A stretch of 64,000 bases of DNA from Beduinella massiliensis (GTDB lineage: Bacteria > Bacillota > Clostridia > Christensenellales > Aristaeellaceae). The translations under genes were made by a program, and so were the position numbers. The notes under the pieces are model-generated. The model was not told where the DNA came from and searched no databases. It saw nothing but the letters and a program-made list of their open reading frames with translations. Within the stretch, counting starts at the first letter, position 1, and the number at the start of each line of letters is the position of its first letter. Below are positions 6,359 through 9,864 of the stretch, piece after piece. The stretch spans positions 3,855,894-3,919,893 of the forward strand of contig NZ_LT963430.1 in the NCBI RefSeq assembly GCF_900199405.1. The letters run 5' to 3'.

Positions 6359-7819
6359 TCACAGCTCGATCCGCTGCGTGGCGACCGCATCCACAAACGC
6401 GCGGTCGTGCTCGACGAAGAGCATAGTGGGGCGCTTTTTTTGAATGAGCGCCTCCAGCTGCATGCGCGAATACAGGTCGATGTAGTTGAGGGGCTCGTCC
6501 CAGAGGAAGAGGTGCGCCTCTTCGCACAGGCTGCGGGCGAGCAGCACCTTCTTCTTCTGGCCAGCGCTGAAGTCGCGCATGTCCTTTTCAAACTGCGCGC
6601 GCGAAAAATCCAGCGTGCGCAGCGTCGTCAAGAGCAGCGTGGCGTCCACGCCGCAGGTGCGCGCGTAATCGTACAGCGAGCCCTCCAGGAAATGCATATC
6701 CTGCGGTACGTAGGAAATGGCGAGGCCGTTAGCGACGCGGAGCGTCCCGCCGTGGGGAATTTCCTCCCCCGCGATGAGCTTGAGGATGCTCGACTTTCCG
6801 CATCCATTGGGCCCAGAAAGCGCGATGCGCTCGCCGCCCTGCACCGTGAAGCGCACGCCCCGCGTCACCTCGCGCCCGTCAAAGCGGATGGACAAGTCCA
6901 ATGCCTCCGCCAGCTTGCTTTGGCGGAATTCGAGCGGGTGCATCGTCAGCGGCTCCACTGTCTCCACGTCCCGCAGCAGTCCCCGCTTCTCCTCCACCGC
7001 CCGCAGCCTGCGCGTCTCGGCGTTCTTGGCGCGCTTCATCATCTTGGCGGACTTATGGCCGACGTAGCCGCTGTCCGCTGCCCCTTTCTTCGTCTTTTCT
7101 ACCGCGTCCGACCAGCCTGCGGTCGCCCGCGCCGCCGTTGCCAGCCGCCCGATGTCTCGTTTCAGGCGCTCGTTTTCGCCCTGCTCGTACTGCTCGCGCA
7201 GCGCTTTATTGTGCATGAAGGTGGAAAAGTCGCAGGATACCACCTCAATGCCCGTCTTGTTGAGCGAAAGCACGTGATCTACGCACGCGTCCAGAAAGGC
7301 GCGGTCGTGCGACACGAGGATAAAGCCGCTCTTGCGGCGAAGGTAGGCAGCCACCTGCTCTCGGGCGCGCATGTCCAGGTGATTCGTCGGCTCGTCGATC
7401 AGCAAAAAGCGGTGGTCGCGCAAAAACAGCAGCGCCAGCAGCACCTTGGTGCGCTCGCCGCCGGACAGGGTGTCAAAGGGACGCCAGAGCGCCCCCTCGT
7501 CCACGAAGAGCAGGCCGAGCTCGCGCTCAAAGCGCCACTGCTCCATGCCAGGGTTGAGCTGCTGCGCGGCTTCCAGCGTCGTGAGGCTTCCGTCCGGCAC
7601 CTCCAGGGGGAAGTACTCAAACTGCACGGGCGCGGTTATCGTGCCTTCGTAGGGATAAGCCCCCATCAGCAGCTTTAAAAACGTCGTCTTGCCGCGCCCG
7701 TTGCGGCCCGTAAAGCCCAAACGCCAGCTCGTGTCGATCTGAAAGGATACGTCCTCGAACACGTCCTCAAAGCTGCCGTCATAGCCGAATGTGAGATGGG
7801 ATACGTCGATCAGTGCCAT
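6359..7819 (-). CDS. ABC-F ATPase, probable antibiotic-resistance ribosomal protection protein (Lsa/Vga-like)
   Basis: Soluble protein of 486 aa with two ABC domains and no membrane segments. Domain 1 has Walker A GRNGRGKTT (about residue 39), signature LSGGERTK and Walker B LIDEPTNHLD. Domain 2 has GPNGCGKSS, FSAGQKKK and WDEPLNYID. The WDEPLNY(I/L)D form and the IGRNGRGKTT-like start are typical of the Lsa/Vga/Sal branch, which displaces lincosamides, pleuromutilins and streptogramin A from the ribosome. The basic linker (about residues 215-290) is of moderate length. The gene stands alone, behind a promoter about 230 bp upstream and a leader with hairpins, as in drug-inducible members. Resistance itself is inferred from family. 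Confidence 0.88.
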   Translation of the reverse strand: MALIDVSHLTFGYDGSFEDVFEDVSFQIDTSWRLGFTGRNGRGKTTFLKLLMGAYPYEGTITAPVQFEYFPLEVPDGSLTTLEAAQQLNPGMEQWRFERELGLLFVDEGALWRPFDTLSGGERTKVLLALLFLRDHRFLLIDEPTNHLDMRAREQVAAYLRRKSGFILVSHDRAFLDACVDHVLSLNKTGIEVVSCDFSTFMHNKALREQYEQGENERLKRDIGRLATAARATAGWSDAVEKTKKGAADSGYVGHKSAKMMKRAKNAETRRLRAVEEKRGLLRDVETVEPLTMHPLEFRQSKLAEALDLSIRFDGREVTRGVRFTVQGGERIALSGPNGCGKSSILKLIAGEEIPHGGTLRVANGLAISYVPQDMHFLEGSLYDYARTCGVDATLLLTTLRTLDFSRAQFEKDMRDFSAGQKKKVLLARSLCEEAHLFLWDEPLNYIDLYSRMQLEALIQKKRPTMLFVEHDRAFVDAVATQRIEL

Positions 7820-7841
7820 ATGGCATCACCCTTTCCAATAC

Positions 7842-7880
7842 AAACAGGCCGCAGAAAGCAGCGCTTTCCACGGCCTGTTT
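7842..7880 (-). promoter_or_regulatory. Second leader hairpin next to the ABC-F ribosome site
   Basis: A near-perfect inverted repeat, AAACAGGCCG (7842-7851) with CGGCCTGTTT (7871-7880), has an inner GAAAGC/GCTTTC stem. On the transcript it ends about 7 bases before GGAAAGGG, the ribosome site of the ABC-F gene. It is followed by TTTGTATT, so it could act as a weak terminator or a translation block. Confidence 0.55.
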
Positions 7881-7917
7881 TTTGCGCGCAAACAGTGCGC
7901 CATCCCCAAAAGGGTGC

Positions 7918-7955
7918 AAAAAAAGCCGGGAACATGCGGTCTGCTTCCTGCCGGC
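7918..7955 (-). terminator. Premature terminator in the ABC-F leader
   Basis: On the minus strand a GCCG/CGGC plus GGAA/TTCC stem with a small bulge (7925-7955) is followed by seven T residues (7918-7924). It lies about 95 bases after the predicted transcription start and about 100 bases before the ABC-F start codon, as expected for transcription attenuation. Confidence 0.6.
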
Positions 7956-8003
7956 GGGCAGCACAAGCGACGGCATACGCCGTGCTCCGCTGCCCAACAC
8001 ACA

Positions 8004-8039
8004 TCAGCAAGAAGTCTTCCGCATCTTCCCAGCTCCCAT
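8004..8039 (-). CDS. Possible leader peptide of 11 residues (or 6 from an internal ATG)
   Basis: An ATG at 8039 opens a short frame MGAGKMRKTSC ending at 8004, directly after the predicted transcription start (about 8050). An internal ATG at 8024 gives MRKTSC with GGGAG about 8 bases upstream. It precedes the leader terminator, the position of drug-sensing uORFs of inducible ABC-F genes. Support is positional only. Confidence 0.35.
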   Translation of the reverse strand: MGAGKMRKTSC

Positions 8040-8056
8040 CTCGTCTTAATACCGAA

Positions 8057-8085
8057 AGTATAGCGCACGCCCATGTACTTGTCAA
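8057..8085 (-). promoter_or_regulatory. Strong sigma-A-type promoter of the ABC-F gene
   Basis: On the minus strand TTGACA (8080-8085) is spaced 17 bp from TATACT (8057-8062). The predicted start near 8050 gives a leader of about 230 nt before the ABC-F start codon. Confidence 0.8.
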
Positions 8086-8154
8086 GAGGGGCGCAGGCGC
8101 CGCCATCCAGTCGATGCCTCCCCACGTGTGCGAAGCTTGCGCAGCCCGTCTGGA

Positions 8155-9597
8155 TCAGTAGGCCTTTGCAAAGTACATGACCTTTTCGGCCTTCTTGCCG
8201 CAGCAGACGCAGGTGCCGCCCACGGGCGTCTGGTCAAAAGGCATGTTGCGGCTCGTCGCGCCGGTGAGCTCCTTGATCTTGTCCTCGCAGGCCTGCTCGC
8301 CGCACCACATGGCCTTTGCGTAGCCGCCGTTCACCTGCGCGGTCAGTTCGTCCATGTCCTGCACGACCTTCGTGTGCTCGTCGCGGAAGGCGCGGGCAAT
8401 CTCGAACATGTTCTGATGCACGTCCTCCAGCAGCGCGCCCACCTCGCCCGCAAGGCCGCTCAGCGCGAGGGGCTTCTTCTCGAACGTATCACGCCGGACG
8501 GAGAGCACCTGGCCCGCCTCGATGTCGCGGGGGCCGACCTCCAGACGCACGGGCACGCCCTTGAGCTCCCATTCGTTGAACTTCCAGCCCGCGGAGACGT
8601 TGTCGCGGTCGTCCAGCTTCACACGGATTCCCGCGGCCGCGAGCTCATCCCGAATCTCCTGGCACTTCTCCATCACGCCGCCCTTGTGCGCGGCGATGGG
8701 CAGGATGACGACCTGAACAGGAGCGACCCTGGGGGGCAGCTTGAGCCCGCGTTCGTCGCCGTGCGTCATGATGATCGCGCCGATTAAGCGAGTGGACACG
8801 CCCCAGCTCGTCTCGTGGCAGTATTCCAGCTTGCCGTCCTTGGACAGGTACGTGATGTCAAAGGGCTCCGCAAAGTTGGTGCCGAAATTGTGGCTGGTGC
8901 CGCTCTGCAAGGCCTTGCCGTCCTGCATCATGGCTTCCACGCTGTAGGTCGCGCGCGCGCCCGCGAACTTTTCCTTTTCGCTCTTCTGGCCGGAATAGAC
9001 GGGCACGGCCAGCACGTTTTCGCAGAATTCGTGATAGACGCGCAGCATCTGCATCGTCTCCTCCTGCGCCTCCTCGGCCGTGGCGTGCACGGTATGGCCC
9101 TCCTGCCACAGGAATTCCGCGGTGCGCAGGAAAGGGCGCGTTGTCTTCTCCCAGCGCATGACCGAGCACCACTGGTTGTACTTGAGCGGCAGGTCGCGCC
9201 AGGACTGCACCCACTTGGAGTACATCGTGCAGAAGATCGTCTCGCTCGTGGGGCGCACAGCCATGCGCTCCTGCAGGGGCTCGGTGCCGCCCTGTGTGAC
9301 CCATGCCACCTCGGGCGCGAATCCCTCCACGTGGTCTGCCTCCTTGAGCAGCAGGCTCTCGGGGATCAGCATGGGCATGGAGACGTTTTCGTGCCCCGTG
9401 GCCTTAAACCGCGCGTCCAGCTCCTTCTGAATGAGCTCCCAGATGCCGTAGCCGTAGGGCTTGATCGCCATACAGCCGCGCACGGGCGTGTAATCCATGA
9501 GGTCGGCCTGCAGCACGACGTCGGTGTACCACTGCGAAAAGTTCTCGCTTCGGGGGGTGATGTGCTTGACAAACTCCTGATCGTTCTTCTTGGCCAT
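8155..9597 (-). CDS. proS: Prolyl-tRNA synthetase, archaeal/eukaryotic-like short type
   Basis: Charges tRNA-Pro in the cytosol. The ATG at 9597 has AGGAGG 9 bases upstream; in-frame codons further upstream run into the T-box terminator and are not used. The 480 residues fit the short form without the editing insertion of E. coli-type ProRS. Visible class II elements are the N-terminal ITPRSENFSQWYTD, RPTSET of motif 2 and GDERGLKLPPRVAP near motif 3, followed by an anticodon-binding domain. A C-terminal zinc-binding-like region (cysteines in MWCGEQAC and CVCCGKKAE) ends in the conserved tyrosine (FAKAY). It is monocistronic and T-box controlled. Confidence 0.96.
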   Translation of the reverse strand: MAKKNDQEFVKHITPRSENFSQWYTDVVLQADLMDYTPVRGCMAIKPYGYGIWELIQKELDARFKATGHENVSMPMLIPESLLLKEADHVEGFAPEVAWVTQGGTEPLQERMAVRPTSETIFCTMYSKWVQSWRDLPLKYNQWCSVMRWEKTTRPFLRTAEFLWQEGHTVHATAEEAQEETMQMLRVYHEFCENVLAVPVYSGQKSEKEKFAGARATYSVEAMMQDGKALQSGTSHNFGTNFAEPFDITYLSKDGKLEYCHETSWGVSTRLIGAIIMTHGDERGLKLPPRVAPVQVVILPIAAHKGGVMEKCQEIRDELAAAGIRVKLDDRDNVSAGWKFNEWELKGVPVRLEVGPRDIEAGQVLSVRRDTFEKKPLALSGLAGEVGALLEDVHQNMFEIARAFRDEHTKVVQDMDELTAQVNGGYAKAMWCGEQACEDKIKELTGATSRNMPFDQTPVGGTCVCCGKKAEKVMYFAKAY

Positions 9598-9631
9598 TTC
9601 GATTGTCCTCCTAAAAAGTCCATTAGGATAG

Positions 9632-9864
9632 AAAAAACCTTCGCCCCATGCAGGGACGAAGGAAGGTCTTCTTCGCGGTACCACCCGGCTTGGCGCATGC
9701 GCGCCCGCTCAATCCCCCTAACGCGGGGAAAACGCCGACGTTCTTGGCGCCGGGGCATGATGGAGACCGGAGACAAAACCGCCTGCACGCGCTGCCTTTC
9801 AGCCGATGGGCCGCGCTCTCTTTTTGCCGCCTGACTTCGTCTTTCTCCGTCGTCGCCGGTATGT
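9632..9864 (-). ncRNA. T-box riboswitch upstream of proS
   Basis: The minus strand carries the antiterminator T-box core GGGTGGTACCGCG (9674-9686), followed by a terminator stem CCTTCG/CGAAGG (9638-9662) and six T residues (9632-9637). A long structured Stem I region spans roughly 9700-9864. Uncharged tRNA-Pro should stabilise the antiterminator and allow proS transcription. I could not fix the specifier codon with confidence; several CC-containing triplets occur on the 3' side of Stem I. Confidence 0.9.

Follow-up and report, generated by a model that had tools for sequence, protein, structure and literature searches.

The closest described systems are leaders of ABC-F genes that are controlled by a short upstream open reading frame (uORF). 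For vmlR and cplR, three-codon uORFs, transcription termination and a cover on the ribosome site of the gene have been established experimentally, as reported in PMC9226507 and PMC10201436. vmlR of Bacillus subtilis is described as induced by lincomycin and pleuromutilins, and a variant with the uORF MRK as also competent (PMC9226507). The cplR leader of Clostridioides difficile is reported to comprise 212 nt, with a three-codon uORF and a premature termination that is relieved by the drug (PMC10201436). The same source gives for lsaA of Enterococcus faecalis a short uORF, MAGN, predicted by uORF4u, and names lincosamides, pleuromutilins and streptogramin A as the drugs against which Lsa(A)-type proteins protect (PMC10201436). 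For the are5sc and tiaA leaders of Streptomyces coelicolor, toeprinting is reported to show that ribosomes on the uORFs halt at the start codon in the presence of a lincosamide, a streptogramin A or a pleuromutilin (PMC12421871).

We analysed a stretch of 64,000 nucleotides from Beduinella massiliensis (here called the window), in which an Lsa-like ABC-F gene is preceded by a leader of about 230 nt. We consider it quite probable that this leader is a ribosome-operated attenuator of the gene, responding to the dwell of a ribosome on a start codon. The leader is located on the minus strand between proS, which ends at 8155 on the same strand, and the ABC-F gene (7819-6359). L009 and L010 denote leaders from the same genus.

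8057..8085, minus strand: promoter TTGACA-17-TATACT, 11/12 matches
8025..8037, minus strand: uORF Shine-Dalgarno region GGGAGCTGGGAAG, doubling as 5' arm of terminator T1
8004..8024, minus strand: uORF ATG CGG AAG ACT TCT TGC TGA (MRKTSC, 6 codons), same peptide in L009 and L010
8007..8015, minus strand: segment 1 (ACTTCTTGC), the last part of the uORF and pairing partner of segment 2 (2/60 shuffles as good, window alone)
7956..7995, minus strand: internal hairpin GGGCAGC..GCTGCCC, joining the two T1 arms in the folds
7943..7951, minus strand: segment 2 (GCAGGAAGC), complementary to segments 1 and 4, identical 9-mer in L009 and L010
7918..7938, minus strand: terminator T1, 3' arm followed by seven T (7924-7918), from the fold and from covariance model R1, which matches 7917-8050 over its full length
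7908..7916, minus strand: anti-Shine-Dalgarno stretch CACCCTTTT, complementary to the ABC-F ribosome site and paired with it at a mean probability of 0.96
7842..7880, minus strand: second hairpin with segments 3 (7869-7863) and 4 (7859-7851), followed by bases that are only partly T
7827..7834, minus strand: ABC-F Shine-Dalgarno AAAGGGTG, paired with 7916-7908
6359..7819, minus strand: Lsa-like ABC-F ribosome-protection protein, 486 aa, from model scores and the match to Lsa(A)

An earlier note on this DNA had listed a consensus promoter, short ORFs, seven T and a second hairpin, and all of these are present on the minus strand. A scan of 7000-9700 for sigma-70-like sites gave this promoter (8085-8057) and no other (shuffles: mean 0.3, sd 0.6), and both hexamers and the 17-base spacing are the same in L009 and L010. 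The transcript would start at about 8050 on the minus strand. The leader folds with a z-score of -8.2 compared to shuffles (0/200 as good). A 98-codon frame at 7810-8106 (minus strand) overlaps the leader and the start of the ABC-F gene. No Rfam family matched the window leader at gathering score, and the leaders of ten relatives gave nothing at this score except a T-box in L105. A T-box leader is also located before proS (9649-9862, minus strand, model complete); with 42.8 bits it lies below the gathering score of 93 and is therefore absent from the scan at Rfam thresholds. Plasmid records gave no match to window 7600-9700 at megablast sensitivity.

The encoded protein scored 440 bits against the ribosome-protection model ribo_prot_ABC_F (cut-off 380). 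Its best-scoring model was Lsa (NCBIfam NF000167) with 658.9 bits, and since this value is below the cut-off of 750 we call the protein Lsa-like. Among proteins of solved structure, Lsa(A) (7nhk) is closest, with E 1e-117 over residues 1-484.

Behind the promoter, two nested frames share a stop codon (8006-8004), MGAGKMRKTSC (AUG 8039) and MRKTSC (AUG 8024). Both had been noted earlier, but a good ribosome site is found for MRKTSC only (anti-Shine-Dalgarno duplex of -11.1 kcal/mol compared to -3.1 kcal/mol for AUG 8039). ATG 8039 is situated at the edge of that very site, and for these reasons MRKTSC was taken as the likelier uORF. The longer frame was rejected on its weak ribosome site; furthermore, the rows of genera g24 and g8 in the alignment A3 described below read AACGGAG at this position. 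A comparison with relatives showed that a short uORF with a ribosome site is conserved. Three genomes of the window's genus, all carrying the ABC-F gene and two of them nearly identical to each other, have MRKTSC, both promoter hexamers, segment 2 and the stretch TTCCCGGCTTTTTT in identical form. In the uORF region the window and L010 agree in 39/41 bases.

In the predicted fold, the ribosome site of the uORF is part of the terminator. The best stem ahead of the seven T has as its 5' arm the uORF Shine-Dalgarno and start codon, 100 nt upstream, and it is formed by the uORF stretch AGCUGGGAA-AUGCGG with CCGCAU-UUCCCGGCU just before the seven T. The stem followed by seven T that the earlier note had seen is present, with the T at 7924-7918, but the strongest stem is non-local and uses the ribosome site and start of the uORF. 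The window also has a local stem ahead of the seven T, with 5 G-C pairs and some others (-11.7 kcal/mol), which persists when the ribosome block described below is applied. L009 and L010 are devoid of this local stem; another local hairpin is predicted there (-10.4 kcal/mol). In the three genomes of the genus, of which two are nearly identical, the T1 helix is kept with a mismatch and without compensatory change.

We scanned 308 genomes of the bacterial family, 103 of which contained the gene at E <=1e-90. Leaders were analysed for 77 of the 103, from 13 genera, leaving out L085-L097 (match starting at residue 84 to 134) and 13 others. Candidate uORF AUGs were ranked by the strength of the ribosome site alone, and 70 of the 77 leaders were kept for the pairing work: L012, L036, L045, L083 and L084 were dropped for want of a uORF with a strong ribosome site (one by hand) and L016 and L021 for want of a T run, while L063 was restored by hand with a looser T run. 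The uORF peptides of these 70 leaders begin with Met-Arg in 63 cases, comprise at most four residues in 63 and read MRK in 37. A promoter-like pair with at least 10/12 matches was found upstream in 46/68 leaders, compared to 0.7% of base shuffles. The uORF of the dropped L012, MYTFLRLN, is similar to that of L234 and L235 (MYTFLRA), from distant hosts.

For each leader, and by the same rule for the swapped controls, the T run was the one that pairs best; an initial rule, the first T run after the uORF, had led to wrong choices for several leaders and was replaced. The own T1 arms of the 70 leaders reached a mean of -23.4 kcal/mol, compared to a permuted mean of -19.1 kcal/mol (sd 0.38, best of 2000: -20.5), and the own pair was better than both other-genus averages in 53 of them. 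Folds with at least eight T1 pairs were obtained for 64/70 leaders, which is weak, since shuffles reach 52%. Genera g24 and g8 have 23 leaders; alignment A3, which omits L055, L064 and L065 and comprises the other 20, shows three helices: the ribosome site with the arm before the T run, the GCGC of AUGCGC with GCGC, and CCUGCC with GGCAGG. As the structure was itself derived from A3 it has an advantage there, and the figures carry no correction for relatedness among the rows: 96.6% of cells are paired (slid versions 38.6-52.8%) and covariation is 0.208 vs 0.162 (0/500 shuffles as good). An alignment of genus g41 yielded five pairs only instead of the full terminator helix, and the ribosome-site helix was missing from one that combined g1 and g8.

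The covariance model R1 was built from A3 and contains no rows from the window's genus. It matched window 7917-8050 over its full length with 23.4 bits (E 0.0007 in 161,676 bases), and in the whole genome of the organism the window match was the better of two (E 0.018). From 30 sources, 16 were matched at E up to 1 and 14 missed, several of the latter being family leaders. With stricter filters and E 0.01, R1 matched in 72 of the 308 genomes of the family scan; none of the three genomes of the window's genus passed this threshold. By coordinates, 53 of the 72 matches are located directly before the Lsa-like gene. The other 19 comprise 13 before a second ABC-F group, three before an Lsa-like gene cut by the contig end, one before an ABC-F remnant, one ending with its contig and one without ABC-F, so that 70 of the 72 belong to an ABC-F gene or remnant. 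The leader before the remnant (L217:138-262) precedes a frame ending after 25 codons.

The second group (leaders L211, L213, L214, L216, L218, L219, L221-L224 and L226-L228) is from the same bacterial family and has MRK- or MRN-like uORFs, with proteins of about 25% identity to the window protein. With the ribosome-protection model, three of these proteins stayed under the cut-off of 380 (268 to 321 bits).

These counts bear on the question whether both hairpins are simply terminators of the upstream proS, with the ABC-F promoter and the tiny frame being incidental. proS does end on the same strand only about 70 nt before the promoter, and the site scan of 7000-9700 listed no terminator-like site in between, as would be expected if the hairpins served proS. 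The layout, however, tracks ABC-F and not proS: the sequence upstream of the leaders varied (by eye), 70/72 R1 matches precede an ABC-F gene or remnant, and each of the three genomes of the genus has a promoter separating proS from T1. We therefore regard a role as proS terminators as very unlikely.

The second hairpin (7880-7842) comprises 18 pairs including wobbles, with -29.8 kcal/mol. It had been described as touching the ribosome site of the gene; the hairpin exists, but it does not overlap with 7834-7827 and is nested inside the helix that covers this site. Read on the plus strand (7842-7886) the hairpin runs into TTTTTT and could stop antisense transcription, too. On the minus strand it is part of a predicted four-segment switch in which the pairings 1:2 or 2:4 stand against 3:4. 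We surveyed this arrangement in 89 leaders, 80 from named relatives and nine from the family. In 58 of them the uORF start is followed by a core YTYCYTGY, with peptides such as MINFSCK and MIILSC; 28 were outside this pattern and three too short. The core corresponds to segment 1. Its partner, segment 2, is a GCARGAA stretch further downstream, and this stretch pairs as well with segment 4, the right arm of the hairpin near the gene. When the downstream sequence was shuffled, at most 1/60 shuffles matched the 2:4 pairing in 34 and the 1:2 pairing in 29 of 47 distinct leaders. For the window, 2/60 shuffles equalled its own 1:2 and likewise its own 2:4, compared to 0/60 for L009. This shuffle test replaced a permutation test, which was biased because the segments had been chosen as best matches. 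The most variable column is a T or C in segment 1 opposite an A or G in segment 2 (27 TA, 11 TG, 9 CG, no CA).

Among the surveyed leaders, those with MINFSCK (L127, L128, L135, L140, L145 and L147-L150) differ in the genus that their records name (Flavonifractor, Gemmiger and others) but are nearly identical, which suggests, on the sequence evidence, a recent transfer of the gene together with its leader. A gene of this kind also follows the leaders L098, L120 and L122, which form another class, with the uORF ATGATTCGYTAR (MIR) and a downstream sequence that differs.

In a protein tree of 34 loci (54 were tried; the others failed the frame filter), the window's genus joins a Butyricicoccus protein with the uORF MFTTSC (support 99/96), apart from the MRK leaders of g32. 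Judged from its sequences, the window's genus carries both designs, a T1 with the uORF as its arm and the four-segment hairpin. For the second hairpin, segments 1-4 would fit the vmlR-type arrangement, in which a uORF hairpin is the anti-antiterminator of a separate local terminator; T1 would act by direct exclusion.

The competition between pairings was followed by folding 91 leaders, 39 in which the core is present and 2:4 reaches -10 or better (eight of the 47 distinct core leaders were excluded for a weak 2:4 match) and 52 of the AUG-stop type described below. A ribosome was represented by a block of bases -16 to +15 around the uORF AUG. In the free RNA, 1:2 formed in 88 leaders, 3:4 in 87 and 2:4 in none. 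With the block at the uORF AUG, 2:4 formed in 67 and 3:4 in 20, and with 20 extra 5' bases in 61 and 27 of the 91, respectively. A block shifted 24 nt upstream gave 2:4 in 0/91 leaders, and one shifted 32 nt downstream in 3/90. The loss of T1 and of 1:2 under the block is by construction, as their 5' arms are covered, and the result concerns 2:4 against 3:4 alone. Stepwise folds of the free window RNA contained 14 to 17 paired bases of T1. In the blocked fold the window switches to 2:4, while its sibling L009 never switches. The folding with and without a ribosome on the uORF suggested by the earlier note thus gives the alternative pairing, but a transient one: 2:4 is best only while the RNA ends at about 7848-7838, and the completed leader returns to 3:4 even under the block.

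The helix 7916-7908/7834-7827 covers the ribosome site of the ABC-F gene and encloses the second hairpin. Pairing 2:4 crosses this helix and would therefore open the ribosome site. Control could be mainly translational, with transcription reading through and the cover on the ribosome site as the switch. The pairing probability of 0.96 in the window and a comparable helix of different letters in L010 agree with this, and for cplR translational attenuation has been reported to be sufficient for repression (PMC10201436). The family leaders, however, contain a T run preceded by an extended stem well upstream of the gene, as expected for termination of transcription; control at the level of translation in the main is in our view unlikely.

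The earlier note had interpreted the leader as sensing an antibiotic through the peptide MRKTSC or MGAGKMRKTSC. The comparison, with the same layout before ABC-F genes of the family and with the similar leaders established for vmlR and cplR, gives good support to a uORF-controlled attenuator that would respond to an antibiotic, but the role assigned to the peptide is probably wrong: the Ser-Cys codons are a pairing segment that persists without a coding frame. In L155 and L162 the uORF consists of MR followed by a stop codon, yet TTTTCCTGC is kept at the same distance. The distance from the AUG to segment 1 is 10 in 44 of 49 distinct leaders.

Still shorter uORFs were found in Paenibacillaceae, the family of Paenibacillus chitinolyticus (L103), in which 86 of 104 genomes contain the gene. 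We read 90 leaders (L232 and L234-L322; some genomes give two). The motif was absent from 21 and present without an AUG in four; in 52 of the remaining 65 the uORF is an AUG followed immediately by a stop codon, and 13 have short frames. The 52 AUG-stop leaders, which are related to one another, use TAA (36), TAG (13) and TGA (3) in 48 distinct contexts. Among the other ATGs of these regions, a stop comes directly after 34 of 578. The use of all three stop codons speaks for selection on the stop codon and not on a DNA word, as far as sequence comparison can tell. Segment pairings 1:2 and 2:4 together with a T-rich tail were recognised in 49 of the 52 at the thresholds of our script. Among relatives the uORF shortens to MRK, to MR and to AUG-stop.

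Arrest by a nascent MRKTSC in the presence of a particular drug, of the type of the erm or msrD leaders, would account for the identity of this peptide in three genomes of the genus and for the frequency of Ser-Cys among relatives, and the constant distance of 10 between AUG and segment 1 holds Ser-Cys in frame. The same letters pair with segment 2 (27 TA, 11 TG, 9 CG, no CA), however, and they stay in place where the frame stops earlier (L155, L162) and in the AUG-stop leaders. Moreover, a chain of three to six residues is short for tunnel-dependent arrest. These observations make a peptide-specific arrest improbable. Because the pairing letters outlast the frame and AUG-stop leaders exist, the leader most likely responds to the dwell of the ribosome at the start codon and probably does not read the peptide. 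We lean, with some reserve, towards regarding these leaders as a broad class of peptide-free sensors that time the stay of a ribosome on a start codon; the uORF could be reduced to AUG-stop because the ribosome footprint alone would matter. In the window's genus, this footprint would cover the 5' arm of T1 and much of segment 1.

From these comparisons we infer the transcript start, the termination, the translation of the uORF, the response to a drug and the identity of the drug in the following course of events. Without drug, ribosomes would clear the six-codon uORF fast, bases 8037-8019 (uORF ribosome site and start codon) would pair with the sequence before the seven T, and RNA polymerase would halt at about 7918. 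In transcripts escaping termination, the ABC-F ribosome site would be covered by 7916-7908. A drug freezing ribosomes at or just after the start, i.e. a lincosamide, pleuromutilin or streptogramin A, would hold the ribosome on AUG 8024. The held ribosome would occupy the T1 arm and segment 2 would be freed to pair with segment 4. This pairing would compete with the cover on the ABC-F ribosome site, and the gene would be transcribed and translated.

If this is true, the leader represents a very simple drug-inducible switch, a minimal frame whose ribosome site and start codon are inside a terminator; the matching protection gene would be switched on by any drug that freezes ribosomes at the start. 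Nature would offer in the AUG-stop leaders a clean test of whether resistance can be induced by arrest at the start codon alone, before any peptide bond is made, and their signature could be used to search gut and soil Firmicutes for inducible ABC-F genes. The literature searched contains no description of the Lsa-like layout or of bacterial AUG-stop uORFs as drug sensors; most subscription papers were outside its scope, so this is weak evidence of absence.

The kind of switch, a uORF-controlled ABC-F attenuator, is already known. The leader of cplR, an ARE1 ABC-F gene with the uORF MRI, resembles the one described here in its Met-Arg uORF and in the sequestered ribosome site of the gene. As described for cplR, however, the uORF has a 5' hairpin of its own and the ribosome site of the gene is sequestered by the terminator itself, whereas in the window the start of the uORF is the terminator's own 5' arm and T1 is followed by a second, four-segment hairpin. 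The vmlR leader with its uORF MIN shares the short uORF, the terminator and the structure over the ribosome site of the gene; it has been modelled with an antiterminator released from an anti-antiterminator, whereas T1 of the window would need no antiterminator. The lsaA leader belongs to the protein family closest to the window protein, Lsa(A), but its predicted uORF MAGN is of neither the Ser-Cys nor the MRK class found among the window's relatives. are5sc and tiaA encode ARE5 proteins of an actinobacterium and have, as reported, uORFs other than that of the window. As far as the literature searched is concerned, what appears to be new compared to these systems is the use of the uORF ribosome site and start codon as a terminator arm, the tandem of such a terminator and a four-segment hairpin, and uORFs of the AUG-stop type.
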